Positions 7,010-64,000 of a DNA stretch of 64,000 nucleotides are shown piece after piece. The stretch's first letter is position 1; every line of letters begins with the position of its first letter. Made by a program: the position numbers and the translations under genes. Source of the DNA: Prostheceraeus crozeri (taxonomy: Eukaryota > Platyhelminthes > Polycladida > Euryleptidae). The DNA is taken from positions 124,001-188,000 of the forward strand of contig CAJQUW010000506.1 of NCBI GenBank assembly GCA_907163375.1, in the 5' to 3' direction. The notes under the pieces were generated by a model. The model worked only from the letters and a program-made list of their open reading frames with translations, had not been told where the DNA came from and did not search any database.

Positions 7010-7825
7010 TTACTCCACGTTTAACGTCCGTTGAATCCCATCTCCTGGGGCTGGACGGTTGATGGCTCTCCTCCATTCATCTCGGTTGGCAGCGAGTTCT
7101 TCGGGGATTCCTATTTTCTTCAGATCTTCTGAGACACATTGACGCCATGTTCTTCTTGGTCTTCCGACGGCTCGACGCCCTGGGACTTCCATGCTTTCCA
7201 CTCTGCCCAAGCAGTTTCCCTCATCCCTCTTTACATGACCGAACCATCTCAGACGCCCTCTTCTAACCCGATCTTCCAGCTCCTTCAGACCACACATTCT
7301 TGCCACTTCCGCACTTGATCTTCCGTCGCTCCATTTTACTCCTGCCATGTATCGCAGCATTCTCCGATCACATGCTCGCAATAGTTCAAACAACTTCTGT
7401 GTCAAGGACCATGTTTCTGAGCCATACATAAGGACAGATCGTATGCTGGACTCATACACATGAGCTCTGGATCTTAGGGGGACACTCTTGTTGTTCAGAA
7501 GTCTGGCTAACTCTCTCCATTTGGACCAAGCATTAGCTACCCGAGCTCTCACTGTCCTTTCTACTCCACCTTGACTGTCCAGCATATCTCCGAGATAGCA
7601 AAAGTGGCTAACCTCTTGTATGCTAGGACTACCATCAATTGTTACAGAGTCGTCTGTCGGAATATTGGTTGTATTTGCGCTTCGACACTTAGGACATTGG
7701 AAATGTGTCACTCCCACCAGAGAGCGCAGATGGGAACATCTTTTATGACACCACTTGTGGCATGAGGTACAGAGAATCGAATTCACCCCAACTCCTTTTC
7801 CACAACATCCACACCGTCATTTGCC
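7010..7825 (-). pseudogene. LINE PHD-like finger plus C-terminal domain
   Basis: Begins with a C-x2-C ... C-x2-C-x3-C-H-x2-C ... C-x2-C array (CTSCHKWCHKRC ... FQCPKC), a treble-clef/PHD-like finger inserted between the RT palm/thumb and the C-terminal LINE domain. The latter reads FCYLGDMLD, RVANAWSKW, VYESSIRSVLMYGSETW, RRGRLRWFGHVKRD and GRPRRTW, all standard LINE C-terminal blocks. The first cysteine pair of the finger lies upstream, across a frameshift and a TGA. The finger probably binds nucleic acid, which is inference. A related finger occurs in the LINE fragment at 22.9 kb. Confidence 0.75.
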
Positions 7826-9138
7826 AGATTTGATTGTTTCTTGCCGTTTCTTCCCTCCAGGTTAACTTTCATTCCCCTCTTCTCAATGCTGCTTTTCCAC
7901 CCACAAAGCATTTGCTCCACATCGTTCTTCGTTTCAACAGTCAATAAAATGTCATCAGCGTACAGGAGCTCCCATGGACCCTCGCCTCGACACTCCTTGG
8001 ACAGTTCCTCCATCGCAGTGATAAAGAGAAGAGGACTGAGTGCAGAACCTTGATGGACTCCTACCTCTATCATAAACTCCTCCGATGTGCCTGCCATGGA
8101 GCTTACCTTTCACGTCAATCTCTCGTACAGTGACATCACAGATGCTACGAGGCCTTCTGGAATCCCTTGGCGTCTTAAGGCCCAAGCTATTACTTTTCGT
8201 GGAACACTATCGAAGGCTTTTTGAAGGTCAACAAAAACATGAAACAACCTTTTCTGTTTCACACAGTACTTCTCTTGCAGCTACCGCAGAATGAAGATCG
8301 CATCGGTCGTCGACTCTCCAGTGCGGAATCCAAATTGCCGCTCGTCTATTTGCATGAACTTCTTCAACCTCATTTCGAGAACCTTTTCGAATATTTTCAT
8401 ACCGTGTTCAAGCAGCCGTATTCCCCTGTAATTTCCACATTCCATCGCATCGCCTTTACCTTTGTAAAGTGGAATAGTTACGCTGCTTTGCCATGATGGA
8501 GGTACTTTTCCTGAGAACAAAGTACTTTGGAAGATACCTCTCAACACTTGAACCGCAGTTTCACCTGCTCCTTTGATGAGCTCAACCACCATGCCGGATG
8601 GTCCAGGAGCTTTCCCACTCTTCATGCTCGCTATAGCATGCCTTATTTCTGCCTCCGTAACTTCCTCCAGGGGACCTTCCGTCACTTCTGTCTCAAAGTC
8701 ATTTTGCATATTGAGCAGATTTTCGAAATATTCCTTCCATCTTTTACTGATCTGATCCTCAGTTAGGATTATTTCACCGTCTTCGCCTTTGATATATCTT
8801 GAACCACTGATGTCTTTCCGTTCGCTCTTCATCTGTCTTGCCAATCTGAACATTTTCTTATTCATTTCATTTCTGCTCGTCTCATTTACCCAGTTTTTCC
8901 AAGACTGATCCTTCGCTACTGCCACCTCTTTCTTTACCAGCTTCGACTTGATTTTGTAATCGGACCGATCTTCAACATTCTTTGTCGTCTGCCACTTCTT
9001 GAAGGCTGCTCTGCTAGTTTTAATGGCTTCTTGCACCCTGGCGTTCCACCACCAAGTCTCACGGTTGAACTGCCTACGCTTCCCATTTGTTTTGCCACAT
9101 AGCTTCCTGGCCGTCTCTAACATTTTCTCATGAAACAT
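7783..9138 (-). pseudogene. LINE reverse transcriptase domain
   Basis: Contains the ordered LINE RT blocks: SGKAPGPSG, VTIPLYKGKGD, NYRGIRLL, RQFGFRTGESTTDAIF, VDLQKAFDSVPR, GVHQGSALSPLLF and the catalytic LYADDILL. These match RTE-like RTs, including the tryptophan-rich linker (WWWNARVQEA) upstream. Two in-frame stops, at 8281 (TAG after ...AIFILR) and about 8113 (TGA after LYERLT), and a frameshift near 7830 interrupt it. The stop contexts look like single point mutations of a continuous frame. The YADD catalytic pair is intact. Confidence 0.85.
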
Positions 9139-10132
9139 CTCCCATCACTCCATTGTTTTCTTTTTCTTGAGTCATCTGTTGTCTCAGCGATTCTTCGAAT
9201 TCCTTCTTCAGATCTTTTGCGCTCAGTTTCCAAACTTTGATCTTCTTCTTGCAACTCTTCCTATCTTTCACTTCCAACCCACTTTTCCTCTTTATGTCCA
9301 TCACCAGAATCCGATGTTGCAGAAGACAGGCTTCGCCAGGGATCACCTTGCAATCTCTCACCACACCGGCATCCTGTTGTTTTACCAACAAGAAGTCTAT
9401 CTGGGTTTGATGGTCACCACTCTTGTACGTTATTTTCTTCTTCATGCCCTTTGAGAAAAATGTGTTCATCACCTTCAAACCATTGCTTTGGCAGAATTCA
9501 AGGATTCTGTTCCCTTCACTGTTTGCTTGCCCGTATCCAAAGGGACCAACACTTTCTTCGAAACCAGCTCTGTCATTCCCAATGTGACCATTTAGGTCTC
9601 CGGCTACAATAACGCTTTCAGATGAGGGTACGCGCATTATTTCATCGTCCAGTCTCCCCCAAAAGGCATCCTTTTCGACATCTGACTTCCCAGCCTGGGG
9701 CGCATACACTGAAAAAATGTGTGTCACTTTGACGTCAAGGATAAGTCGAATTTTCATTATCCTTTAAGTTAATCTCTCTACTTCCAGCACATCACTGGTC
9801 AAGCATTCTTTTAGCAGGATACCAACTCCTCCTCTGCTTGACTTCTCTCCAGACCACCAAAATTTGTACTTTTCATCGCCTTCACCGATGTATTTGCATC
9901 CACAACCTTTGAATTGGGTCTCCTGCACACAGCAGACATCAACTCCTCTTCTCAACATCTCAACCACCTCCCTACTTCTCCCATACATTGAGCCAACATT
10001 AGCTGTCCCAATGCGCAAGTTTTTCATTTTCTTCTCCCCGGACATTCTTCGCACCCCTTGCCTATTCAAAGGCTGCCGGTCACTAGGGGCCATTTGAGAG
10101 TGAGCCATTCCATAAAAAATACGGTGCTGCAA
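9128..10132 (-). pseudogene. LINE apurinic-type endonuclease domain
   Basis: Reads as an exonuclease-endonuclease-phosphatase (APE-like) domain of a LINE: RIGTANVGSM near the start, the VDVCCVQET magnesium-site motif, SRGGVGILL, FSVYAPQ, the catalytic AGDLNGHIG block, and TQIDFLLV before a conserved C/H-spaced ...GEAC...QHR stretch. The endonuclease would nick target DNA to prime reverse transcription. One in-frame TAA (9764-9766) interrupts it between the GILL and VYAPQ blocks. The frame shifts near 9130 before the RT domain. The catalytic E, D and N residues are present, so only these lesions separate it from an intact domain. Confidence 0.8.
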
Positions 10133-14603: not shown

Positions 14604-16929
14604 CTAAGAACGCGAGTTAAAAAATCTGTCAATTACCGATGCCGATACAGTCTCATATCGATCGGAATGGCTTCGGCGTTCCTCTTCTAATTTTTGCCGT
14701 TTGGCACGAAGCTTCTCCATATCTTCCTCAGCTTTCTTTAACTCTTTGTCAACCGCTATTATATCCGCCTTGACACTCGATGGATTTCTCCGCTTATACA
14801 CCTGCAATTCTCGCCGCAGTTCCATTGATTTCAGCGACACAATGGCTTTCTGTTCTGTCATTTCCTTTGAAACTGCTCTATACTTGCTGCTTGCCTCAGA
14901 CAAGAGCTTCAACAAATCAGTAGGCGGTTCGTAAGATTCAAATGTATCTCGACTGAAAAAACCGCTAACAAAACGTCTACTGTCGTAGGTTTCAAGAGTG
15001 ATGTTCGCCTGGAACTTCGATTCACTATAGTTCATTTCACTGAATCCCCTTTCGACAGACATATTATGTGGTAAAATGAGCAAAACACTTTTACAAACGT
15101 GAAGCAGCAAAGGGTACCCTCGCAAATGTCCCTTTTCGAAAGAAGTTACCAGGCTTAAATCCATGATACCTTCGGCTTGAGTTTTCACTCGAAGTGAGCT
15201 TAACTCATCCTGAACGGTAGAACGAGAGCAATCGATAGCTTCGCACAGCAAACCAAGCCTGTTCACGCTTTCTTTTGAAAAATCTTCGATTCTCAAGAAG
15301 AGAACGTAACAATAATGCACTATGTCCGATGACAGAAAAGGTGAAAAGCGATTCAATAACCGTGAAAGCTGATCTTCGTTGTGCTTGTCCCATTCAGCTT
15401 TGATGTCACGAATTTCACTGTCAAGCAAGTGGTCTAATGCAGCGATTAAGTGATGATTGTTCTTCGAGTATTGTAGATTTGAGCACTGTGAGGTTTGAGA
15501 ACTGAAGCTTCGTGCAAGTCGCGGCTCTCCTCGGCCGGTAGGCTTCATGTACAACTTCGACAAGTAGGAGCGAGGAGAAAGTTCCACAGATTGACCCAGT
15601 CGAGTGAGTAACTTCGATATTAGTTCCAACAAAGTCAAAAGGCAGCCATAGATTGTAAGATCTCCGCGTTGCATGCACTTGGTAAAGTCAAAGATTGGGA
15701 CACTATGGATCAGAAACTGATCCACGTGAACAAGAAAAAGTCAGATTCAACGCATTTTATGAGCTCCTGGTCATTTGACATCAAAATGATCTTTTTGATG
15801 ACAGGAAACTGACTGCAAAATTCATGAAGCACTTCGAAAAGTGACAAAAATCGTGTAGGGCAATAATCTTTTATTCTTTCGAGTTCTAAGAACTTCTCAC
15901 ATTGGTGAAGAATTGACTTCACTTTTGATTTGTTATCCAAAAAGTTCGACAAATGCTGAGCAAAGTTGACAATACCTTGAATTGTTGAGCTCTTAATTTC
16001 GTCCTTCTGTAGTAGATGAGCGGTATGGCATATGCAACCGGTGGTTTCCATGAGATTGGGACAACACTCTTTCAACTGCGTCTTAAATCCTTTCCGATTG
16101 CCAGTCATAACATTGCAGTTATCGGTCATCAGAAAGATCAAATTTCCCAAGTCGAGATTGAATTTTTTCAACGTGTTCAGGGTTGCGTTCAGGATATTTT
16201 CGGAAGTTACTAATGTCATATCATCAAGTGTAACTGAACTAGACGAAGAAAGAAACTTTTCCACATCCAAGTCAACATGCAATTCTTCAGTGCTGAGATA
16301 CTGTAACCGACGATGATTCGCTTCGTCAAAATAGATAATCCAATATTCGAGTCGAACTTTATTGTTGTACGTACTTTCATCCACCAGTATGCCAAACTCA
16401 TTTTCGTGGAGAAGTTCTGTCAATTGCTGTCTCGCAAATGGAGCAATTGCATGGTTGAGAAGATATGTGGCTTTGATCCTACCGCAATTTATCTTCGCAT
16501 ATTTAGAGTCCGGAAACATTACACAATAAATAGATCGCTTTCGAGTACATGGATCACTACTTCTCAATGGTGCCTGGTTCAAGACAATGTTCAAAACATG
16601 AAAAAAAGTTGCTCGATTTCTCATCGCCGAGTCATCACGAACTTTTGACAGAGCGGAAGGTTTGACAGAGCGAACTTTTGAAGGTTGCCCAATATTTGAT
16701 TTACATGCATTTTGGTGAATTTTCGTCGATTCGTGTTGACGAAGATTTTTGACCCCGACTTGACACCAATAATTTTGTTATCATATTTGCATCGCACTTC
16801 GGAAGGGGAGTTAGGAACCGGAAATGCCCACGGAAAGTCCGTCTTCATCGACGCATTGAACGAGCATGACATCTGAAATAACAGTAATAAAATGGAATCA
16901 AGAGACACTAACAAGATGATACCAAGCAT
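14604..16929 (-). pseudogene. hAT-1 transposase (BED-like finger, RNase H-like, dimerisation, coiled coil)
   Basis: Three minus-strand segments in order. At 16929-16621 is a degenerate BED-type finger (RCKYDNKI...GSKIF) missing its second cysteine. At 16624-15710 is the catalytic domain with FGILVDEST (first Asp), LMTDNCNVMTGNRKGF (second Asp) and a CICHTAHLL block, then ...YCPTRFLSL. At 15725-14604 is the insertion domain and the hAT C-terminal dimerisation block (LILPHNMSVERGFSEMNYSES), followed by a Lys/Glu-rich coiled coil of about 70 residues. The catalytic and C-terminal parts are joined by a 1-nt frame change near 15720. In the family this enzyme excises and reinserts the element. It resembles the ZBED/SCAND3-like hAT group. 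Confidence 0.85.
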
Positions 16930-30163: not shown

Positions 30164-30330
30164 TGTTTTTGAAATTAAAATCAATTAATTGTTGGCCTAT
30201 TAGCCCTTCTTCCGCAAAAAAAACAACTAGGTAGTTCTCCTTAGGGTCCCTAAAGAGAACTACCTAGTTGTTTTTTTGCGGAAGAAGGGCTAATAGGCCA
30301 ACAATTAATTGATTTTAATTTCACAAACAT
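30164..30330. repeat. Near-perfect 84-bp-arm hairpin with TTAGGG-T-CCCTAA loop
   Basis: The two arms (30164-30246 and 30248-30330) are reverse complements apart from one 1-nt indel in an A/T run and about two mismatches. The centre is TTAGGGTCCCTAA with its axis at 30247. Arm blocks include CAACTAGGTAGTTCTC and GGAAGAAGGGCTAATAGGCC. No coding sequence is present. It is a probable short palindromic MITE or the product of a head-to-head duplication, in the AAGAB intron next to the mariner relic. Confidence 0.85.
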
Positions 30331-38179: not shown

Positions 38180-38350
38180 GGTCTCCGTGTCACAGTGAAG
38201 TGCTTGACCCAGCGATCTTTCGGTCAGGGAGGTCGAGCGACGAAAGCGTCATTGCAAGTCGTCAGGAAGGGCATCCGGTATAAAGATCACAACGCTCCAA
38301 TTAAAAGTCTGGCTATGTCAGCACCGTCGATGAACCCCAGTATGGGGGAG
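38180..38350 (+). mobile_element. RTE/SINE-like 3' tail interrupted by the PLE
   Basis: Contains GACGAAAGCGTC and GTCAGGAAGGGCATCCGGTATAAA followed by a CCCC...GGGG hairpin. These phrases recur near the 3' ends of RTE-type LINEs and tailed SINEs in many invertebrates and fish. The PLE array begins immediately after, at its 12-bp target duplication. The family call is from memory. Confidence 0.4.
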
Positions 38351-38362
38351 TATTGACGTTAA
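38351..38362 (+). repeat. PLE array left target-site duplication
   Basis: TATTGACGTTAA, identical to 46486-46497 on the other side of the array and in the same orientation. Confidence 0.85.
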
Positions 38363-39790
38363 TGACAGTGAGAAGCCGTAAGCTTTTGATAGGTTTATTA
38401 GCAGCAAACATGTTTCAGTAGGCAAGCTACCATCATCAGTGACAACGGTCAATAAACAAGGATGCAATATATACAGTGCGAATGAGACAAGAAAAATCAA
38501 TATAGGAAAAGCGGCTGTGATTGGCTGCGGTTATTCATTAGGTACTGTGAATGAAGGAATGACTTAATGTACAATGATTCAGCAATTTTCGTGTATGGAG
38601 TGCGATTGAGAATTTTAAAATTATCTTTATTTGGGATGTGAACATGAAGAGATATTTCGGATGCTGGTCGACCTTTCACGTGTTCGTTTATCCTAGTGAA
38701 AATATGGCGACGGGTTTCACCGACGTAGCATTGACTGCAATGCTCACAAGTATACTTATACACTACGGAAGATAACTCATTGAAAGGAATTTTATCTTTA
38801 TTGCTTATCATGTTTTGTGTTTTGTATGTGTTCAAGGCAATTCTTAAAATACTATTTTCTAAAGCACTATTTATGTGGCGAATATTACGTTTTATTCGAG
38901 AAAGAAGAGTTGAAACATAGGGGAGCTTCCAAAATATTTCAGTTTTTTCGCTAGATTCTATTTTAGTCATAGGATTATCACAACGCTCAAAGACTTTATT
39001 TATTCTATCCGGATGATATCCGTTTTGAATAAAAAGATTCCTAACTTTGTTTTTGTTATAATCGCGGTCGGCAGGGAGACTGCTTAGTTTTTGAGATCTT
39101 TTGTACAAGGCTTTAATCGCGTTGTTCTTATAAGAGTCAGGACTGTAGGAGTTGCTATGAGTATACAATAAAGTATTGGTTTCTTTTGTTATCCAATTGG
39201 TTTCAAATTTGCCATTTTTTATGAAAATATTCATATCTAGAAAATTGATAGTCATTTATGGGTTCTTCTATCGTAAATTGAAGAGATGAATTAACAGCAT
39301 TGAGCTGGTCTAAAAAAGTGAGGACTTCGGTTCGAGACCGAAAGACTGCTAAAATATCGTCGACGTACCTAATGTAAAAGTCCGGCATTTGCATTTTACT
39401 TTCTATAATATTTAAAGAGAATTCAGCCATAAGAGGTGCAAGGGAGGATCCCATACTCATTCCTTCTTTTTGAAGGTAGTTTCTACTGTTGAACAGGAAC
39501 GTCACATTAGTGCAAGCTAGTTGCAAGAGAGTACGCAAAGTATTATCATTAATAGGAAATCTATCAAAATTGACTAAGCTAATTATATGGTCGATAGTGT
39601 TATTGACTGGAATATTAGTGAAAAGTTGAACAGCATCGAAACTGACTAAGTAAGGATTTTCATACGGAAAATCGAAAGAGTTAATTTTTCTTTCAGCTGT
39701 AAAGCTATCCTTAGTTGAAAAAGACTTTGGCAAAAATGGTTTTAGGTGAGCAAGAAGCCAGTCGCAAATGTTTTTGCAGAAGGAGTCAGG
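38363..39790 (-). pseudogene. PLE inverted copy: RT core, GIY-YIG endonuclease, pLTR end
   Basis: A minus-strand copy lacking the 5' third. RT is read from PKSFSTKDSF through FDAVQLFTNIPV, MSMGSSLAPLMAEF and YVDDILAVF (39733-39203). It then passes a frame change into NFLDMNIFIKNGKFE and on through KYTCEHCSQCYVGETRRHIFTRINEH, the GIY-YIG endonuclease, to the stop at 38497. It retains the 198-bp RT block missing from copies 2 and 3 and the 6-A run that keeps the second half in frame, so its 3' coding region is the best preserved together with copy 3. It includes the ribozyme-like terminus. Confidence 0.88.
38393..38457 (-). ncRNA. Hammerhead-ribozyme-like motif, inverted copy
   Basis: On the minus strand CTGATGA (38439-38433), a short GTAG/CTAC stem-loop, and GAAAC (38416-38412) appear in the order of the hammerhead core. 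Flanking GTTTATTG and TAATAAAC can pair as an outer stem I. One extra unpaired U precedes stem II. Stem III would be only ACA/UGU, as in minimal motifs that work as dimers. Confidence 0.5.
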
Positions 39791-39796
39791 AGTCAG

Positions 39797-41965
39797 GATT
39801 GCCTAGATTTGAAAGTTATTCCAAATTCCTTGAAATGCCGGCTGCCGAGATCGATCAAACAACATCAACATCTTCTAAAGAAAGGGCAATTCAAAACCCT
39901 CCACAAAGTCCACAATGAGAATATGGCAAAAGTCGAATCAACCAACGAAGCACTCAGAACCTTCGAAAGTACCTGCCAACCAGATGTCCTTCCTATCATC
40001 CAAGTCCTAAGTCAATCTTCCAATGTCAAAACAATCGATCGAATCAAACTACAACACTCAAAGAAGTTAGAGAATCTACAATTCCACTCTCAAGCTGAAG
40101 CTGATCCCGAACCTTCCACAAAACTGAGGATCGTCAGCCTGTCCAAAAGAGTCCTGACCGATCAGGAGAAGGAGGTGCTGACATATGGTCTTGGAATGTG
40201 TTGGCCCTGCAAACCGAACGAGATGAAGCTCAAGATAGAAGGTGAAGCAATTTTCAAGCGTATCAAGTCGACAATCAGACTCATATTGAAGAAGAAGCAA
40301 AGTATCCCAAGGAAAATCATACAAATGATGAAGACTCTCAAGGCCATCTGCAAAGAAAAGGACCTCTACATCACAAAACCGGACAAAGGCAATTGCGTGG
40401 TCCTCATGGACAAAGACCAGTACATTAAGAAGATGGAGAAACTGCTCCAGTCACCTAAATTTTCCCAAATTCCAACCAATAAGAAGAATGTTTTCATTTC
40501 AAAGGAAACTCAAGTCAACAACAAGCTACTCCAACTCAAGAACAATAGGCAACTCACCGATTCTCAATACAAGCTGCTGCGAAATACCGGTTGCCAGCCA
40601 AGCAGACTCTACCGTCTTCCTAAACTGCACAAGAACGTCAATGATCCTCCAATGAGACCGATCCTGACAATGACTGACTCCTTCTGCAAAAACATTTGCG
40701 ACTGGCTTCTTGCTCACCTAAAACCATTTTTGCCAAAGTCTTTTTCAACTAAGGATAGCTTTACAGCTCAAAGAAAAATTAACTCTTTCGATTTTCCGTA
40801 TGAAAATCCTTACTTAGTCAGTTTCGATGCTGTTCAACTTTTCACTAATATTCCAGTCAATGACACTATCGACCATATAATTAGCTTAGTCAATTTTGAT
40901 AGATTTCCTATTAATGATAATACTTTGCGTACTCTCTTGCAACTAGCTTGCACTAATGTGCCGTTCCTGTTCAACAGTAGAAACTACCTTCAAAAAGAAG
41001 GAATGAGTATGGGATCCTCCCTTGCACCTCTTATGGCTGAATTCTCTTTAAATATTATAGAAAGTAAAATGCAAATGCCGGACTTTTACATTAGGTACGT
41101 CGACGATATTTTAGCAGTCTTTCGGTCTCGAACCGAAGTCCTCACTTTTTTAGACCAGCTCAATGCTGTTAATTCATCTCTTCAATTTACGATAGAAGAA
41201 CCCATAAATGACTATCAATTTTCTAGATATGAATATTTTCATAAAAAATGGCAAATTTGAAACCAATTGGATAACAAAAGAAACCAATACTTTATTGTAT
41301 ACTCATAGCAACTCCTACAGTCCTGACTCTTATAAGAACAACGCGATTAAAGCCTTGTACAAAAGATCTCAAAAACTAAGCAGTCTCCCTGCCGACCGCG
41401 ATTATAACAAAAACAAAGTTAGGAATCTTTTTATTCAAAACGGATATCATCCGGATAGAATAAATAAAGTCTTTGAGCGTTGTGATAATCCTATGACTAA
41501 AATAGAATCTAGCGAAAAACTGAAATATTTTGGAAGCTCCCCTATGTTTCAACTCTTCTTTCTCGAATAAAACGTAATATTCGCCACATAAATAGTGCTT
41601 TAGAAAATAGTATTTTAAGAATTGCCTTGAACACATACAAAACACAAAACATGATAAGCAATAAAGATAAAATTCCTTTCAATGAGTTATCTTCCGTAGT
41701 GTATAAGTATACTTGTGAGCATTGCAGTCAATGCTACGTCGGTGAAACCCGTCGCCATATTTTCACTAGGATAAACGAACACGTGAAAGGTCGACCAGCA
41801 TCCGAAATATCTCTTCATGTTCACATCCCAAATAAAGATAATTTTAAAATTCTCATTCGCACTCCATACACGAAAATTGCTGAATCATTGTACATTAAGT
41901 CATTCCTTCATTCACAGTACCTAATGAATAACCGCAGCCAATCACAGCCGCTTTTCCTATATTGA
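39797..41965 (+). pseudogene. PLE direct copy 1: RT plus GIY-YIG endonuclease
   Basis: RT frame through 41260. It starts at CLDLKVIPNSLKCRLPR, having lost the N-terminal ~50 codons at the inversion junction, so there is no native start codon. It contains the N-terminal helical region, TKPDKGNCVVLMDKDQY, RLYRLPKLHK, the full palm with FDAVQLFTNIPV, MSMGSSLAPLMAEF and the catalytic RYVDDILAVF. A +1 frame change near 41208-41260 leads into FLDMNIF, a second 1-nt loss (5 A instead of 6 near 41515-41519) truncates that frame at 41570, and a third frame (41627-41965) carries the CEHCSQCYVGET endonuclease. It is the only direct copy with a complete RT palm. Confidence 0.88.
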
Positions 41966-41988
41966 TTTTTCTTATCTCATTCGCACTG

Positions 41989-41996
41989 TATATATT
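41989..41996 (+). promoter_or_regulatory. PLE pLTR TATA-like box (also 44201-44208, 46413-46420)
   Basis: TATATATT lies 34 bp upstream of the ribozyme-like CTGATGA in each direct unit and in the inverted copy (38466-38473, minus). Together with the downstream ATG and an AATAAA in TAATAAACC, each boundary could start and end transcripts. It is inferred from position only. Confidence 0.4.
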
Positions 41997-42004
41997 GCAT
42001 CCTT

Positions 42005-42069
42005 GTTTATTGACCGTTGTCACTGATGATGGTAGCTTGCCTACTGAAACATGTTTGCTGCTAATAAAC
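42005..42069 (+). ncRNA. Hammerhead-ribozyme-like motif, copy 1/2 boundary
   Basis: CTGATGA at 42023-42029, a GTAG-CTTGC-CTAC hairpin, then GAAAC at 42046-42050. Outer helix GTTTATTG (42005-42012) can pair with TAATAAAC (42062-42069), giving a type I layout. The putative cleavage site follows ACATGTT, within 5 nt of the RT frame's ATG (42051). Hammerhead ribozymes in PLE terminal repeats are established. Deviations here are a one-base bulge before stem II and a weak inner stem I. Confidence 0.55.
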
Positions 42070-44177
42070 CTATCAAAAGCTTACGGCTTCTCACTGTCAA
42101 TACTGTCTTGCTGCTACTGCCGATCGAATATCAGACAACTGCCCGTCAACACAAGAAGCTTTATCTCAAATCTGAAAAGGCAATTCTGCACCAGAAATTT
42201 ACAAAGGATTGCCTAGATTTGAAAGTTATTCCAAATTTCTTGAAATGCCGGCTGCCGAGATCGATCAAACAACATCAACATCTTCTAAAGAAAGGGCAAT
42301 TCAAAACCCTCCACAAAGTCTACAATGAGAATATGGCAAAAGTCGAATCAACCAACAAAGCACTCAGAACCTTCGAAAGTACCTGCCAACCAGATGTCCT
42401 TCCTATCATCCAAGTCCTAAGTCAATCTTCCAATGTCAAAACAATCGATCGAATCAAACTACAACACTCAAAGAAGTTAGAGAATCTACAATTCCACTCT
42501 CAAGCTGAAGCTGATCCCGAACCTTCCACAAAACTGAGGATCGTCAGCCTGTCCAAAAGAGTCCTGACCGATCAGGAGAAGGAGGCGCTGACATATGGTC
42601 TTGGAATGTGTTGGCCCTGCAAACCGAACGAGATGAAGCTCAAGATAGAAGGTGAAGCAATTTTCAAGCGTATCAAGTCGACAATCAGACTCATATTGAA
42701 GAAGAAGCAAAGTATCCCAAGGAAAATCATACAAATGATGAAGACTCTCAAGGCCATCTGCAAAGAAAAGGACCTCTACATCACAAAACCGGACAAAGGC
42801 AATTGCGTGGTCCTCATGGACAAAGACCAGTACATTAAGAAGATGGAGAAACTGCTCCAGTCACCTAAATTTTCCCAAATTCCAACCAATAAGAAGAATG
42901 TTTTCATTTCAAAGGAAACTCAAGTCAACAACAAGCTACTCCAACTCAAGAACAATAGGCAACTCACCGATTCTCAATACAAGCTGCTGCAAAATACCGG
43001 TTGCCAGCCAAGCAGACTCTACCGTCTTCCTAAACTGCACAAGAACGTCAATGATCCTCCAATGAGACCGATCCTGTCAATGACTGACTCCTTCTGCAAA
43101 AACATTTGCGACTGGCTTCTTGCTCACCTAAAACCATTTTTGCCAAAGTCTTTTTCAACTAAGGATAGCTTTACAGCTGAAAGAAAAATTAACTCTTTCG
43201 ATTTTCCGTATGAAAATCCTTACTTAGTCAGTTTCGATGCTGTTCAACTTTTCACTAATATTCCAGTCAATGACACTATCGACCATATAATTAGCTTTTA
43301 CATTAGGTACGTCGACGATATTTTAGCAGTCTTTCGGTCTCGAACCGAAGTCCTCACTTTTTTAGACCAGCTCAATGCTGTTAATTCATCTCTTCAATTT
43401 ACGATAGAAGAACCCATAAATGACTATCAATTTTCTAGATATGAATATTTTCATAAAAAATGGCAAATTTGAAACCAATTGGATAACAAAAGAAACCAAT
43501 ACTTTATTGTATACTCATAGCAACTCCTACAGTCCTGACTCTTATAAGAACAACGCGATTAAAGCCTTGTACAAAAGATCTCAAAAACTAAGCAGTCTCC
43601 CTGCCGACCGCGATTATAACAAAAACAAAGTTAGGAATCTTTTTATTCAAAACGGATATCATCCGGATAGAATAAATAAAGTCTTTGAGCGTTGTGATAA
43701 TCCTATGACTAAAATAGAATCTAGCGAAAAACTGAAATATTTTGGAAGCTCCCCTATGTTTCAACTCTTCTTTCTCGAATAAAACGTAATATTCGCCACA
43801 TAAATAGTGCTTTAGAAAATAGTATTTTAAGAATTGCCTTGAACACATACAAAACACAAAACATGATAAGCAATAAAGATAAAATTCCTTTCAATGAGTT
43901 ATCTTCCGTAGTGTATAAGTATACTTGTGAGCATTGCAGTCAATGCTACGTCGGTGAAACCCGTCGCCATATTTTCACTAGGATAAACGAACACGTGAAA
44001 GGTCGACCAGCATCCGAAATATCTCTTCATGTTCACATCCCAAATAAAGATAATTTTAAAATTCTCATTCGCACTCCATACACGAAAATTGCTGAATCAT
44101 TGTACATTAAGTCATTCCTTCATTCACAGTACCTAATGAATAACCGCAGCCAATCACAGCCGCTTTTCCTATATTGA
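42051..44177 (+). pseudogene. PLE direct copy 2: RT with internal deletion plus GIY-YIG
   Basis: The RT frame opens at an ATG (42051) that directly follows the GAAAC of the ribozyme-like motif and runs to 43472. The palm is missing 66 residues: ...DTIDHIIS joins directly to FYIRYVDDI, removing the segment that holds MSMGSSLAP while keeping the YVDD. The deletion junction shows 3-bp (CTT) microhomology and lacks GT-AG ends, so it is not a spliced intron. The same +1 frame change (43420-43472) and the same 5-A frameshift as copy 1 follow, and the endonuclease is in a third frame (43839-44177). RT activity is very unlikely. Confidence 0.88.
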
Positions 44178-44216
44178 TTTTTCTTGTCTCATTCGCACTG
44201 TATATATTGCATCCTT

Positions 44217-44281
44217 GTTTACTGACCGTTGTCACTGACGATGGTAGCTTGCCTACTGAAACATGTTTGCTGCTAATAAAC
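44217..44281 (+). ncRNA. Hammerhead-ribozyme-like motif, copy 2/3 boundary
   Basis: Same layout with CTGACGA (44235-44241) and GAAAC (44258-44262). The T-to-C change falls at core position 7, the one base in CUGANGA that tolerates any nucleotide. A second T-to-C (GTTTACTG, 44217-44224) weakens outer stem I. Confidence 0.5.
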
Positions 44282-46348
44282 CTATCAAAAGCTTACGGCT
44301 TCTCACTGTCAATACTGTCTTGCTGCTACTGCCGATCGAATATCAGACAACTGCCCGTCAACACAAGAAGCTTTATCTCAAATCTGAAAAGGCAATTCTG
44401 CACCAGAAATTTACAAAGGATTGCCTAGATTTGAAAGTTATTCCAAATTTCTTGAAATGCCGGCTGCCGAGATCGATCAAACAACATCAACATCTTCTAA
44501 AGAAAGGGCAATTCAAAACCCTCCACAAAGTCTACAATGAGAATATGGCAAAAGTCGAATCAACCAACGAAGCACTCAGAACCTTCGAAAGTACCTGCCA
44601 ACCAGATGTCCTTCCTATCATCCAAGTCCTAAGTCAATCTTCCAATGTCAAAACAATCGATCGAATCAAACTACAACACTCAAAGAAGTTAGAGAATCTA
44701 CAATTCCACTCTCAAGCTGAAGCTGATCCCGAACCTTCCACAAAACTGAGGATCGTCAACCTGTCCAAAAGAGTCCTGACCGATCAGGAGAAGGAGGCGC
44801 TGACATATGGTCTTGGAATGTGTTGGCCCTGCAAACCGAACGAGATGAAGCTCAAGATAGAAGGTGAAGCAATTTTCAAGCGTATCAAGTCGACAATCAG
44901 ACTCATATTGAAGAAGAAGCAAAGTATCCCAAGGAAAATCATACAAATGATGAAGACTCTCAAGGCCATCTGCAAAGAAAAGGACCTCTACATCACAAAA
45001 CCGGACAAAGGCAATTGCGTGGTCCTCATGGACAAAGACCAGTACATTAAGAAGATGGAGAAACTGCTCCAGTCACCTAAATTTTCCCAAATTCCAACCA
45101 ATAAGAAGAATGTTTTCATTTCAAAGGAAACTCAAGTCAACAACAAGCTACTCCAACTCAAGAACAATAGGCAACTCACCGATTCTCAATACAAGCTGCT
45201 GCGAAATACCGGTTGCCAGCCAAGCAGACTCTACCGTCTTCCTAAACTGCACAAGAACGTCAATGATCCTCCAATGAGACCGATCCTGTCAATGACTGAC
45301 TCCTTCTGCAAAAACATTTGCGACTGGCTTCTTGCTCACCTAAAACCATTTTTGCCAAAGTCTTTTTCAACTAAGGATAGCTTTACAGCTGAAAGAAAAA
45401 TTAACTCTTTCGATTTTCCGTATGAAAATCCTTACTTAGTCAGTTTCGATGCTGTTCAACTTTTCACTAATATTCCAGTCAATGACACTATCGACCATAT
45501 AATTAGCTTTTACATTAGGTACGTCGACGATATTTTAGCAGTCTTTCGGTCTCGAACCGAAGTCCTCACTTTTTTAGACCAGCTCAATGCTGTTAATTCA
45601 TCTCTTCAATTTACGATAGAAGAACCCATAAATGACTATCAATTTTCTAGATATGAATATTTTCATAAAAAATGGCAAATTTGAAACCAATTGGATAACA
45701 AAAGAAACCAATACTTTATTGTATACTCATAGCAACTCCTACAGTCCTGACTCTTATAAGAACAACGCGATTAAAGCCTTGTACAAAAGATCTCAAAAAC
45801 TAAGCAGTCTCCCTGCCGACCGCGATTATAACAAAAACAAAGTTAGGAATCTTTTTATTCAAAACGGATATCATCCGGATAGAATAAATAAAGTCTTTGA
45901 GCGTTGTGATAATCCTATGACTAAAATAGAATCTAGCGAAAAAACTGAAATATTTTGGAAGCTCCCCTATGTTTCAACTCTTCTTTCTCGAATAAAACGT
46001 AATATTCGCCACATAAATAGTGCTTTAGAAAATAGTATTTTAAGAATTGCCTTGAACACATACAAAACACAAAACATGATAAGCAATAAAGATAAAATTC
46101 CTTTCAATGAGTTATCTTCCGTAGTGTATAAGTATACTTGTGAGCATTGCAGTCAATGCTACGTCGGTGAAACCCGTCGCCATATTTTCACTAGGATAAA
46201 CGAACACGTGAAAGGTCGACCAGCATCCGAAATATCTCTTCATGTTCACATCCCAAATAAAGATAATTTTAAAATTCTCATTCGCACTCCATACACGAAA
46301 ATTGCTGAATCATTGTACATAAGTCATTCCTTCATTCACAGTACCTAA
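44263..46348 (+). pseudogene. PLE direct copy 3: RT with internal deletion, fused C-terminal frame
   Basis: Same structure as copy 2: ATG at 44263 after GAAAC, RT to 45684, identical 198-bp palm deletion. After the shared +1 frame change the second frame (45632-46348) is continuous through the linker and the GIY-YIG endonuclease because it has 6 A where copies 1 and 2 have 5. A 1-nt loss near 46320 (TACATAAGT versus TACATTAAGT) alters only the last residues and stops early. In the family, the endonuclease nicks target DNA and RT primes from the nick. Confidence 0.88.
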
Positions 46349-46428
46349 TGAATAACCGCAGCCAATCACAGCCGCTTTTCCTATATTGATTTTTCTTGTC
46401 TCATTCGCACTGTATATATTGCATCCTT

Positions 46429-46485
46429 GTTTATTGACCGTTGTCACTGATGATGGTAGCTTGCCTACTGAAACATGTTTGCTGT
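46429..46485 (+). ncRNA. Hammerhead-ribozyme-like motif at the array 3' end (truncated)
   Basis: CTGATGA (46447-46453) and GAAAC (46470-46474) are intact. The insertion stops at ...ACATGTTTGCTGT, about six nucleotides past the putative cleavage site, so the 3' strand of outer stem I is missing. The end of the inserted DNA therefore lies close to where a cleaved RNA would end. Confidence 0.5.
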
Positions 46486-46497
46486 TATTGACGTTAA
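46486..46497 (+). repeat. PLE array right target-site duplication
   Basis: TATTGACGTTAA, identical to 38351-38362. It follows directly after the terminal GCTGT of the last ribozyme-like motif. Confidence 0.85.
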
Positions 46498-46880
46498 ATC
46501 ATCATGGCAATAATGCCTAGATTTTGAAAGCATCAATGAGTCGCATCAATAAGAGATGAAAGCATTTTAATCCATGATTATGAAATTAGCAAAAAAAGCA
46601 ACAGTTGATCACTTCAACGCAGGACTGAATAGAATTACAAGTTAAGCAGTGCCACAATTTATAATCAACCATTGAGTGATACTGTACAATTATCATAAAA
46701 TCATGACTCTATTGACTTAAAATGTAGAAATAGTCATTTCATTAAAAAAGTTTATGTCTGTTATCTTCAGAATCCTTGCTATTCAAGGAGAAAAATTCAC
46801 TTTGATTTAAATACGTTCAATAGCTCTTCTTCGAACTTCCTTTCCTTCAGCAATTTTCTCATTGCCAATGGATTCTATAT
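46498..46880. other. Unannotated flank of the PLE array
   Basis: Nothing recognised. Confidence 0.3.
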
Positions 46881-51139: not shown

Positions 51140-53572
51140 TTTGATTTATGGAATATGGGATCATTATGAACAAGTTTCGATGGCGCCATTAAAGTATCGA
51201 TGCAAGTCTTGCTCCAGTCTCATTATGATGTCTCGCAAAAGAGTTGATTGACTTAAGGAACACAAGGTGTGTTGTCGCGGACATCGATCGGTCTCGGTTA
51301 TCAGGTCCACAAGCTCGAGCAATCCCGTTGAATCAGCTACAGAAAGTAAAACCCCTGAAACTGTTGTAGTGGACCTAATAGAGGACGAACAAGATAAAGC
51401 GGAGCAACCAGATGAAGAGCCAGACAAACCTGAGATCCCAGAATTTCAAGCGCAATCATCTGAAGATGATTTACCTCCAATTCATTCGGAATGTCTGGCA
51501 GCATCGTTCTTTCCAGCATTAGCACCGTCATTAACGCGGTCTACATCAGAACCGAAAAGAAAACGCCATGCTTCAGCGAAGAGTTTCGAGGAATTTTGTT
51601 TTCGAACAACTGACGAAGACCGGATGAAAACAAGACAGAAGTGGGCCGAGTTTTTCTTCAAAAATCGTCTTAGTTTCAGATTAGCAGATGACAAATCGTT
51701 TCGAGAAGCTATAGAGGCAACTCGTCCAGGTATTTCTGGTCCAGATTTACTTAAATCCAAACCACTGCTAACTCGTAAGTCTCTTAGCGGAAAATTGCTT
51801 GATGAGGCAGAGCAACGTTGTGAAGACGCACTTCTCAAATTCTGGAAGGAAAATTTGTAGTTCTTTCACAGGACGGCTGGAGTGGTATTCATAATGAGCC
51901 TGTGATCGCGGCAAACATTCACTGCGATGGGAAATGTATCCAGTGGATTTTGAAGCAACCGGTTCAAACACAAAAACAACGGAATTTTGTGCTGACTTAG
52001 CTAAACGTTTCATTGAGAAAGTAGAAACAAAGTATAGATGCACCGTTGTCGGATTCGCATCCGATAGTGAAGCGAAGATGGTGAAACTTCTAAAGCAGCT
52101 CTCCGAATGGCGTGACCTGATGGTTTACGGATGTAGTGCTCACGCTCTCAATCTGGTACAAAATATAGCGACACCACGTCAAGTAATGGCACCGATTGTT
52201 GCAGTGTCAAAATATTTTCGCAATAATCACAAGGCGTCATCGCTTCTGAATGAGTATGGAAGTTGTATCCCACAGTTACCAAATGACACCAGATGGTCAA
52301 GTCACACAGATACCCTCAATACTTATATAGACAACTACGAATTCTACGGAAAAGTCATGGACTCAGGTGAAACAGAAACACCCTCAGACATACAAGGATT
52401 CATCAACAGAGGATTAGTATCTGAAGCTAAAGCGATGCTCTCCCAATTGAATCATATAACATCGATTTTTAACATATTTCAGGTACGTAATTGCATGCAC
52501 ATACATACATAGCTATATTTTTGCTAGCATATATGCAAGTATTATACTTGTCTGTGATGATTTATCTTAATTCTTAAATAGGCTAATAAATGACAGTGTG
52601 TCGTTTTAGAATGTACTCATTTCAGTTACGTGTATCTGTAATTCATCCGATAATTTCTTAAAAGGTTGTAATTGGTCATATTTATGGTAAAACGTGATAC
52701 AGACTTAAGTGCAATGCAATAGCTTGAAAATTATAGTTATTGTAAAAAATATAATAACCTGCGCAAAAGTGGGCCTATAGAACCGATTTTTTAGGATTTC
52801 AAACCCCTCCCCTTTAATCGAATCTTAAGATTTGAACTGATCGCTTTTTTCTGGATTTTTAACCCGCTCTCCTTTAGGAGATTACGTAATTCTTGAACGA
52901 CCCCTTCCTTCTTTTTGTAGAATATGTAACTCATATTTAAGGTGATTTCGACTATTGAATATGATTTTATCTTTCAGAATGATCATTCAAACTTGTCCGC
53001 GTTCAAGTGCGTGAGGGGGTGGCTCAAACTACTTGAGGATGACTACCAATAAGGAGGTACGAGATAGTATTGAATCTCGCTTCAAGAAGACTATGACGAA
53101 CTGGCATCTGTTAGCCTATCTATTGGATCCTCGCGATCAGGCAGATTGTCTAATACTGCCTGACGATCTTGCAAAACAGGCAAGACATCATGTGATGGAG
53201 ATGGGATTTATTCAGCCACTGGCCGCATACGAAACAATGGACACTTCTTCCGGGTTCCGGGTGAAAATAGTCTTCAATACCCAAATCAAAGCGGTACATC
53301 CCACCAAGTATTGGGCATATATATCGAAAGTTACTACCGAACAAACTTTTAAAGAATTTGCAGACATTATGTACAAAATCTTTCTTCTTCCTCCATCTTC
53401 GGCCGGAATCGAGCGAATATTTTCTACTGCCGGCCTGATTCGATCTAAATTACGAAATAGACTCTCTGTCACGAAAGTTGGCCGTCTGGTGACGGTCTCA
53501 AGACTTCCAAGATCTATTGATCAAGACGATGATGAAGCTGTAGAACTGGAAGAGACTCTAGAAGATGTATAA
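51140..53572 (+). pseudogene. hAT-2 transposase (BED finger, catalytic domain, hAT dimerisation), with intron
   Basis: In order: a BED-type finger (YRCKSCSSLIMMSRKRVD, stop, LKEHK) at about 51140-51270; an acidic linker; FFFKNRLSFRLADDKSF; LSQDGWSGI; DFEATGSNTKT; FASDSEAKMVKLL (second catalytic Asp); YGCSAHALNLVQ; LPNDTRWSSHTDTL; an intron with donor GTACGT (52483) and acceptor TTTCAG (ends 52977); then WHLLAYLLDPR; and the dimerisation block FLLPPSSAGIERIFSTAGLIRSKLRNRLS, ending at 53572. One in-frame TGA near 51249 and frameshifts near 51853, 51930 and 53040 break it. The order is complete for a hAT transposase of the BED class. Confidence 0.85.
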
Positions 53573-61602: not shown

Positions 61603-64000
61603 GTGAAGTTAGCGGAACCACTCAGCGGAACCATTTTTTATTATAGCTTAATTCTATTCGAAACAGCTGCTAGTTTGTCAATTTCAGTCTCCTGATTACG
61701 AATCTGAGCTCAGATTTCACAAATTCACAGTCGCTTTTGAGAAATTCAAGTTTAAAGACAAAAGTGGTCCCGCTGTGAAGTTAGCGGAACCATCCAGCAG
61801 AACCAATTGCTGAGTCTCGCTGATTGACGCAGTAAATCAATTTCTTTTGGTCACTACCCGATCAATTTTGTTGTGCTGATCACGAATATGTGCCTCATCT
61901 TTCAAAACAGTGCAGATTTCACCCGGAAATCTGAATTTCACTTTTTCTGCAAGCTGATTGTGAAGTTAGCGGAACCATTTTTTAATACAAAGAATTTCTC
62001 AGCGAAATCCATCCTCTCCAACTAATTTGAAGCTCCTAATCACAAATCTGTAATCAGATTTGCAAAACTCGCCCGCATTGCAGAGATATTCCTCTATCTG
62101 GGTCCTCTGTGAAGTGCCCGGAACCACCTACTGGCATTAAAATTTCAAATTCTAATTTTTGCACAGAATCACTGCAATAGACATACCAAGAGAATGGAAT
62201 TGCTTCACTGATCACGGTTTGCCGTCCGATTTCACGGGAGAATAAGTACTTGCCGAGAAAAATGGATTTTACGGTTTTCATGGACTTTTCTGCAAGCTGA
62301 TTGTGAAGTTAGCGGAACCATTTTTCAATACAAAGAATTTCTCAGCGAAATCCATCCTCTCCAACTAATTTGAAGCTCCTAATCACAAATCTGTAATCAG
62401 ATTTGCAAAACTCGCCCGCATTGCAAAGATATTCCTCTATCTGGGTCCGCTGTGAAGTTAGCAGAACCAATTGCTGAGTCTCGCTGATTGACGCAGTAAA
62501 TCAATTTCTTTTGGTCACTACCCGATCAATTTTGTTGTGCTGATCACGAATATGTGCCTCATCTTTCAAAACAGTGCAGATTTCACCCGGAAATCTGAAT
62601 TTCACTTTTTCTGCAAGCTGATTGTGAAGTTAGCGGAACCATTTTTTAATACAAAGAATTTCTCAGCGAAATCCACCCTCTCCAACTAATTTGAAGCTCC
62701 TAATCACAAATCTGTAATCAGATTTGCAAAACTCGCCCGCATTGCAGAGATATTCCTCTATCTGGGTCCGCTGTGAAGTGCCCGGAACCACCTACTGGCA
62801 TTAAAATTTCAAATTCTAATTTTTGCACAGAATCACTGCAATAGACATACCAAGAGAATGGAATTGCTTCACTGATCACGGTTTGCCGTCCGATTTCACG
62901 GGAGAATAAGTACTTGCCGAGAAAAATGGATTTTACGGTTTTCATGGACTTTTCTGCAAGCTGATTGTGAAGTTAGCGGAACCATTTTTTAATACAAAGA
63001 ATTTCTCAGCGAAATCCATCCTCTCCAACTAATTTGAAGCTCCTAATCACAAATCTGTAATCAGATTTGCAAAACTCGCCCGCATTGCAGAGATATTCCT
63101 CTATCTGGGTCCGCTGTGAAGTGCCCGGAACCACCTACTGGCATTAAAATTTCAAATTCTAATTTTTGCACAGAATCACTGCAATAGACATACCAAGAGA
63201 ATGGAATTGCTTCACTGATCACGGTTTGCCGTCCGATTTCACGGGAGAATAAGTACTTGCCGAGAAAAATGGATTTTACGGTTTTCATGGACTTTTCTGC
63301 AAGCTGATTGTGAAGTTAGCGGAACCATTTTTCAATACAAAGAATTTCTCAGCGAAATCCATCCTCTCCAACTAATTTGAAGCTCCTAATCACAAATCTG
63401 TAATCAGATTTGCAAAACTCGCCCGCATTGCAGAGATATTCCTCTATCTGGGTCCGCTGTGAAGTGCCCGGAACCACCTACTGGCATTAAAATTTCAAAT
63501 TCTAATTTTTGCACAGAATCACTGCAATAGACATACCAAGAGAATGGAATTGCTTCACTGATCACGGTTTGCCGTCCGATTTCACGGGAGAATAAGTACT
63601 TGCCGAGAAAAATGGATTTTACGGTTTTCATGGACTTTTCTGCAAGCTGATTGTGAAGTTAGCGGAACCATTTTTCAATACAAAGAATTTCTCAGCGAAA
63701 TCCATCCTCTCCAACTAATTTGAAGCTCCTAATCACAAATCTGTAATCAGATTTGCAAAACTCGCCCGCATTGCAAAGATATTCCTCTATCTGGGTCCGC
63801 TGTGAAGTTAGCAGAACCAATTGCTGAGTCTCGCTGATTGACGCAGTAAATCAATTTCTTTTGGTCACTACCCGATCAATTTTGTTGTGCTGATCACGAA
63901 TATGTGCCTCATCTTTCAAAAGAGTGCAGATTTCACCCGGAAATCTGAATTTCACTTTTTCTGCAAGCTGATTGTGAAGTTAGCGGAACCATTTTTTAAT
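61603..64000. repeat. Higher-order satellite with an 18-bp box at each monomer start
   Basis: Monomers begin with GTGAAGTTAGCGGAACCA or a variant (GTGAAGTGCCCGGAACCA, GTGAAGTTAGCAGAACCA) at 61603, 61775, 61960, 62109, 62303, 62452, 62624, 62773, 62967, 63116, 63310, 63459, 63653, 63802 and 63974. Lengths after the first two (172 and 185 bp) alternate strictly between an A type of 149 bp and either B of 194 bp or C of 172 bp: A-B-A-C-A-B-A-B-A-B-A-C-A. The A-B pair is the 343-bp repeat and A-C a 321-bp repeat. Copies are nearly identical. The array continues past the window. Confidence 0.93.

Follow-up and report, generated by a model that had tools for sequence, protein, structure and literature searches.

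Layout of the array

The window analysed here is a stretch of 64,000 nucleotides (positions 124,001 to 188,000) of contig CAJQUW010000506.1, a 339-kb contig in the 2.05-Gb, 14,165-contig assembly GCA_907163375.1 of the polyclad flatworm Prostheceraeus crozeri. It contains a block of units of a Penelope-like element (PLE), one partial inverted unit (I) followed by about 2.9 direct units (A, B and C), that is bracketed as a whole by one 12-bp target site duplication (TSD), TATTGACGTTAA (Table 1). An earlier note, made from the letters of the window, had placed this 12-mer exactly at both outer edges in the same orientation, and this is correct: the left copy adjoins the inverted unit, the right copy follows the last direct unit and one T, and there is no third exact match on either strand of the 64 kb. 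The two matches compare with 0.02 expected, and two matches occurred in none of 100 shuffles. As controls for chance, pairs of 20-bp stretches drawn at random from the window had at least 12 bp in common in 3 of 20,000 draws, and mismatched flanks of real insertions reached 12 bp in 0 of 306 pairs and at least 9 bp in 4 of 306.

The earlier note counted four PLE copies, one inverted and three direct; their order stands but they are not all full copies, since I (1.43 kb) and A (which begins at unit position 146) are both 5'-truncated. The repeat period is 2212 bp from B to C and 2410 bp from A to B in the 5' part, the latter because A retains a 198-bp segment that B and C lack. Both the A/B and the B/C junctions are seamless. 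B and C differ at 5 of 2212 bases, and the window units, these two included, also carry distinct private differences. The two outer ends of the block lie 38 nt apart in unit coordinates. (Published work is cited by PubMed Central number, and what is said of it refers to the portions of each paper that were available.)

Table 1. Features of the PLE array, numbered from the first nucleotide of the window.
Feature	Position	Strand	Remarks
Left putative endonuclease half-site	38348..38350		GAG here, A at -2; family consensus AAK, loose; motif from 16 insertions
Left copy of the 12-bp TSD, TATTGACGTTAA	38351..38362	+	
Arm I, inverted 5'-truncated unit	38363..39789	-	Unit positions 1025-2410 plus tail
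Tail, unit positions 1-40	38363..38402	-	Long (L) reverse-transcription start, left break end; tail type in PMC3846280 and PMC11167929
5-nt filler between arms	39790..39794		With the next 2 nt repeats the adjacent GAGTCAG
Direct unit A	39795..42059	+	5'-truncated at unit 146; 198-bp segment kept
Reverse transcriptase domain RVT_1, unit A	40652..41194	+	Pfam E=5.9e-10
198-bp segment shared by A and I, missing in B and C	40885..41082	+	Edges uncertain by 3 bp of microhomology
Hammerhead-like motif	42004..42067	+	CTGATGA 42023-42029, GAAA 42046-42049; by eye, putative
Direct unit B	42060..44271	+	2212 bp; 198-bp deletion
Direct unit C	44272..46484	+	2213 bp; lacks the 198-bp segment; outer end is the short (S) start, at unit position 1
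GIY-YIG endonuclease domain, unit C	46121..46279	+	Pfam E=0.0025, weak, below gathering score, right place
Extra T between unit C and right TSD	46485..46485		
Right copy of the 12-bp TSD, TATTGACGTTAA	46486..46497	+	
Right putative endonuclease half-site	46498..46500		ATC here, T at +13; family consensus MTT, loose

Coding content and identity of the element

The RVT_1 domain is found in unit I (Pfam, E=2e-10) as well as in unit A, and the reverse transcriptase domain expected of an endonuclease-bearing PLE is thus present. B and C lack 198 bp of the reverse transcriptase frame, and in B, without that part of the domain, the RVT_1 match is weak. Matches to the GIY-YIG domain (PF01541) are weak, with E values of 0.0025 in C and 0.0069 in I, and fall below the curated score, but lie at the expected C-terminal place. 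Comparison with NCBIfam and the PDB gave only weak matches to bacterial reverse transcriptases. The reading frame is broken at the same place in all four window units; near that break (unit position 1564) 16 of 31 other stretches compared have a 2-nt length difference, so this state varies within the family. Several structural traits of PLEs are present: tandem and partial-tandem units (the pseudo-LTR, or pLTR, hallmark), a head-to-head inverted unit, the optional 30-40 nt tail at one end and a TSD. All three direct window units lack 51 nt at unit position 620 that are present in 10 of the 14 other stretches with which they were compared.

A hammerhead-like core can be picked out by eye, but Rfam has no match in the 37-48 kb region at E values up to 5 and the minimum-energy fold is not a hammerhead. 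Splicing was considered as the origin of the 198-bp gap and rejected by eye, as the gap has no GT...AG ends; the 3-bp microhomology at its edges would fit a deletion or a template slip. No relatives were found among viral contigs, and no tRNA genes were found in the window.

Paired long and short ends in insertions of the family

Insertions of the family in the assembly were collected mainly with two probes. With the first, which contains the tail, the best 40 of 2231 candidates were scored and 20 of the 31 contigs listed were examined; of the 20 loci, 18 have two arms, and both of their ends could be resolved. As the first probe contained the tail, a second without it was used (best 40 of 978 candidates scored). 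It found nine new 3' ends, of which six are short, two long (L038, L043) and one of another kind (L040); the last three were left out and the six short ends were traced to their opposite ends. Five of these six loci are two-armed, and each has a long opposite end. One insertion found by its tandem junction and three tiny ones with both ends listed bring the count to 27, which leaves out L015, L027 and L046 (described below).

All 27 resolved two-armed insertions have one long end (starting at unit position 38 to 61) and one short end (unit position -13 to about +21), and none is long-long or short-short. In the 23 insertions of the first two samples the long and short starts are 20 to 52 nt apart. 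If the ends were independent and both kinds equally common, such pairing in 23 of 23 would have a chance of about 1e-7, although the evenness of the two kinds is an assumption and the sample consists of the best-matching copies. A bracketed multi-unit array is not as rare as the earlier note supposed, since the layout is typical in the available portions of PMC3846280 as well as general in these 27 insertions. The strict pairing of one long with one short end is the newest point, but its priority is uncertain; we did not find it stated in the available portions of the open-licence literature that was searched.

The arms are joined either across 0-10 nt of microhomology or through a filler, which ranges from a few nucleotides to 17 nt. 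Their inner ends mostly lie at different positions (2 of 19 junctions are nearly symmetric), which disfavours a snap-back (self-priming) origin of the inverted arm; L014 and L025 come nearest to it.

Duplication length and target motif

An exact 12-bp duplication flanks 19 of the 27 insertions, and that of L053 is, by eye, 12 bp with one mismatch; the duplication of L045 runs off the end of the fetched stretch. A target motif was derived from 16 of the exact 12-bp insertions, oriented with the long end on the left. A is present at -2 in 15 of the 16 and T at +13 in 13 (p = 6e-5 and 0.004, respectively, corrected for 144 column-letter tests; jointly about 4e-11 uncorrected), -1 is G or T in 14 (never A) and +12 is A or C in 12 (never T). 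The target is thus a loose palindrome, AAK-N12-MTT. Three exact insertions found later fit it, by eye, at -2 in three of three cases and at +13 in two of three. This motif fits the cleavage at ATT that is reported for the enzyme of the anole PLE in the portions of PMC11167929 available. If each strand were cut just before MTT, 3' overhangs of 12 nt would result, and extension of both 3' ends would give exactly the observed order of duplication and arms; the 3' polarity of the overhang is inferred. Priming by the target overhang on a similar pLTR stretch, TATTGACCGTT, was also considered and rejected: of 1000 12-mers drawn at random from the window, 19% matched the element at least as well as the duplication does at its best.

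A common source for the two arms

Twelve sites set the window units apart from 80% or more of the other stretches in the comparison. At five of these, all of them covered by the four units, the units have the same base, and it occurs in 0 of the 21 to 45 other stretches available per site (several of the stretches come from the same arrays, so not all are independent). With a 301-bp probe, the four window units rank above every other copy scored (best 40 of 593 candidates). These private variants and the probe ranking are the strongest evidence that the inverted and direct window units came from one source. The sharing of such variants by all four units also makes separate arrivals from a large family unlikely. 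Serial insertion, in which new copies would have homed into the pLTR of an older copy without making duplications, has in its favour the proposal in PMC11167929 (available portions) that the enzyme may nick its own pLTR, and a cut exactly at the start site would give a seamless junction; given the shared variants, we nevertheless consider it very unlikely.

Among the 17 insertions whose arms overlap, the arms within one insertion differ at 11 of 6590 bases (0.17%), compared with 0.87% between insertions, and within-insertion divergence is below the mean divergence from other insertions in 14 of the 17. In L013 the two arms match without a difference over 1368 bases, and in L014 over 1281.

Arms of more than one unit

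The earlier note proposed a genome search for other arrays with one TSD, and it was fruitful. A block in contig C2550 (L009/L010/L035; G000:C2550:1089984-1106770) is 16.8 kb long and has about 1.5 inverted and about 5.3 direct units within one 12-bp duplication; counting partial units there are two inverted and six direct, the direct arm being five full units and one partial. The five full direct units differ pairwise by 0 to 5 substitutions and by one-base length differences (d2 and d4 have 0 substitutions in 2461 positions), whereas the full inverted unit is set apart from the direct ones by 8-11 substitutions and by 25 bp of additional sequence, differences that lie for the most part in the 5' half of the unit. 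In C6038 and in C7646/C12877, too, there are arms that exceed one unit. The last two contigs carry the same insertion with the same flanks (L051 and L052), which are apparently two alleles, so that the assembly seems to keep some haplotypes apart. One of these two copies has gaps in its match to the element that look like further insertions. A probe spanning the unit junction matched 10 contigs over all or almost all of its length (best 40 of 847 candidates; the identity is 91% in one contig), with both carriers of one insertion counted separately.

The long arms that pass a full unit, namely those of the window, both arms in C2550 and those of C6038 and C7646/C12877, all cross the unit boundary seamlessly, which points to multi-unit or circular templates. 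Could such arrays be artefacts of assembly? The assembly is in 14,165 contigs, and some one-base length differences look like residual errors (for example in C2550 unit d5), but each unit has distinct private differences, the same plan is present on many contigs, and the arrays lie in long contigs, the window array in one of 339 kb and the larger array in one of 1.17 Mb. We regard misassembly as the least likely of all the explanations weighed here.

The earlier note also suggested a rolling-circle-like origin. In the form considered here, reverse transcription would have gone repeatedly around a circular RNA monomer released by the hammerhead, and the seamless junctions, the near-identity of the C2550 direct units (above all d2 and d4) and the short arm of L049, which halts at unit position 2405 near the hammerhead cut placed by eye, would agree with this. 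The window array fits it poorly: the 198-bp segment is present in A and I but not in B and C, so that one monomer circle would not suffice without later change, and as the sole template of the direct arm as now present it is excluded. In addition, neither Rfam nor folding supports the ribozyme, and according to the available portions of PMC11167929 hammerhead cleavage is dispensable for insertion of the anole PLE in vitro. Rolling-circle synthesis is thus disfavoured for the window array, and we consider it unlikely.

A model for integration

We think it probable that the array results from one integration event of an endonuclease-bearing PLE, in which a staggered cut was made, both 3' ends were primed on multi-unit RNA of the same source and the two arms were joined. 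The steps would be as follows: A pair of enzyme molecules would cut the two strands of the loosely palindromic AAK-N12-MTT site with a stagger of 12 bp, probably so as to leave 3' overhangs, and each free 3' end would then prime reverse transcription on same-source RNA, possibly one and the same molecule, that spans several tandem units. At one end synthesis would begin at the long (tail) start and make the inverted arm, and at the other it would begin at the short start, 38 nt further in for the window array, and make the direct arm. Both cDNAs would halt at variable points and be joined head to head, and the 12-bp overhang would become the duplication around the whole block. The duplication, the target motif, the positions of the ends, the common source of the two window arms, the seamless joins between units and the junction of the arms can be read from the sequence itself, whereas the enzyme pair, the polarity of the overhang, the multi-unit RNA and the use of a single molecule by both arms are inferred.

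Observations against the model and the number of units at entry

A number of observations weigh against this model or parts of it. Among the sampled loci, L015 is one-armed, L046 is one-armed with a 13-bp duplication, and L027 has no duplication and an odd inner piece and was not resolved. The duplications of L011, L017, L022, L024 and L049 are 13-18 bp and that of L019 is 9 bp; the extra bases in the longer ones may be chance matches to element sequence. In L014 and L025 the inner ends of the arms are within 20 nt of each other, close to a palindrome. Within-insertion divergence is above the mean in 3 of the 17 overlapping pairs (L017, L019, L022), and for 13 of the 17 there is another insertion with no difference at all across the overlap; family-wide, the evidence that the arms of an insertion would share a source is modest. 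The long-start arms of L049 (2046-2112) and L050 (1595-1671) are only about 40-60 nt long and stop at the unit boundary (at about unit position 2405 and at unit position 2, respectively) before AT-rich filler, the former near the by-eye position of the hammerhead cut; some insertions may have used templates that end near the unit boundary, for example ribozyme-cleaved ones. No start-site difference between strands was seen with the anole enzyme in vitro in the portions of PMC11167929 available, whereas in P. crozeri the starts are always paired. The empty allele that the earlier note called for was not found, as the right flank, the only flank searched, matches fully only itself (best 40 of 813 candidates).

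The other points concern the units themselves. Among the copies scored the 198-bp deletion is present only in B and C (best 40 of 203 candidates), and derived states are shared in conflicting ways, by B and C (262), by A and B (488) and by I, B and C (1120). No source carrying the private variants (best 40 of 593) or the 198-bp deletion (best 40 of 203) was found, and thus no mixed multi-unit template was observed directly. The confinement of the deletion to B and C and the conflicting variants suggest exchange after insertion: the units may have exchanged sequence once they had entered, or they may derive from a source array that was mixed from the start and is not seen in the assembly.

Is the present number of units then the number that entered? 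The earlier note took the block to be a single integration of a multimeric template. The bracketing duplication, the shared private variants, the seamless junctions and the single 12-bp duplication around the larger C2550 array uphold the single integration, but an outer duplication of this kind attests only that the block entered once. It does not prove how many units there were at entry, and their number may have changed since. A shorter two-armed insertion (I and one or two direct units) could have entered once, with unequal exchange or gene conversion lengthening or homogenising its direct arm afterwards; the entry would still be single, and only the unit number would have another origin. 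The restricted deletion, the conflict of shared variants between unit pairs and the 5 differences in 2212 bases between B and C speak for it. On the other hand, tandem arms in other independent insertions make multi-unit templates look normal in this family, and B and C have private differences too. Such later growth seems to us possible but doubtful, and entry of several units at once remains the reading we prefer.

Comparison with known systems

In twin priming of LINE-1, cDNA synthesis starts from both 3' ends of a break, and an inverted segment comes to lie within one TSD, as in P. crozeri; what is inverted in LINE-1 is an internal 5' segment of the same RNA. The P. crozeri insertions are unlike these in that both arms begin at the 3' end of the element and tandem units are included.

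The available portions of PMC3846280 give as the typical Penelope structure direct pLTRs together with inverted ones, a single TSD and, optionally, a tail on one of the inverted pLTRs, and a curation guide (PMC8969392, available portions) describes tandem and inverted pLTRs with short 3' extensions; an excerpt of PMC12910113 held no information on insertion structure. The Penelope elements of Adineta vaga (Pen2a_Av and others, PMC3846280) are the same as those of P. crozeri in having direct pLTRs with an adjacent inverted pLTR, partial tandems and one TSD. Their TSD is 8-10 bp in the cases seen, where ours is most often exactly 12 bp, and their 31-bp tail is optional, whereas a tail is present at exactly one end in 27 of 27 P. 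crozeri insertions; P. crozeri also has, unlike A. vaga in the same portions, one array with five full units and a partial one in its direct arm. PMC3846280 reads the palindromic junctions of A. vaga as self-priming on antisense RNA, but the unequal arms in P. crozeri favour two primers.

The protein of the anole PLE Poseidon PAc (Anolis carolinensis) cuts and extends both strands in vitro, most commonly at 5'-ATT-3' on each, and it has two adjacent internal start sites (PMC11167929, available portions). The two-strand cutting and extension, ATT preference, tandem organisation and two adjacent internal starts whose gap corresponds to the tail are the same as in P. crozeri, although the starts lie near the start of the open reading frame (ORF) in P. 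crozeri and 111-118 bp into it at the commonest anole start. Hammerheads in PLEs are reviewed in PMC7761336, where (in the available portions) PLEs are proposed as helpers of retrozymes with hammerhead circular RNA. Like the P. crozeri element with its putative hammerhead-like motif, retrozymes have tandem units and hammerhead-type motifs, but the P. crozeri element has reverse transcriptase and putative endonuclease reading frames (broken in the window), and a monomer circle fails to account for A versus B and C.

Other features of the window

A tandem array of a 343-bp unit with copies about 96-100% alike occupies 61796-64000 and runs to the end of the window. Fragments resembling a non-LTR retrotransposon lie at 7010-9763 on the minus strand (a weak reverse transcriptase match at 8281-9144, the rest by eye). 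Remnants like hAT transposases lie at 14604-16777 (minus strand) and 51252-53572 (plus strand), recognised by eye except for 53015-53572, an ORF with a match to the hAT dimerisation domain just below the cut-off. A near-perfect palindrome of about 166 bp (30164-30329, 95.8% identical to its own reverse complement) is possibly a small inverted-repeat element.

Significance

The structure of the window array is of a known kind, recorded with unusual clarity. Knowledge of how PLEs integrate is still rather scant (PMC11167929), and here a single genome records a near-fixed 12-bp stagger, a palindromic cut motif, paired starts and, in the window array, arms from one source. What had been observed in vitro thereby becomes a rule open to testing in living cells, and the record offers an explanation of why there should be inverted and tandem pseudo-LTRs in PLEs in the first place. 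We tentatively suggest, at somewhat less than even confidence, that integration is obligatorily asymmetric and coupled, with two subunits on a palindromic 12-bp staggered cut always using one long and one short start on the same multi-unit RNA. If this is true, every two-armed insertion would have exactly one tail, and multi-unit arms would enter in a single step.

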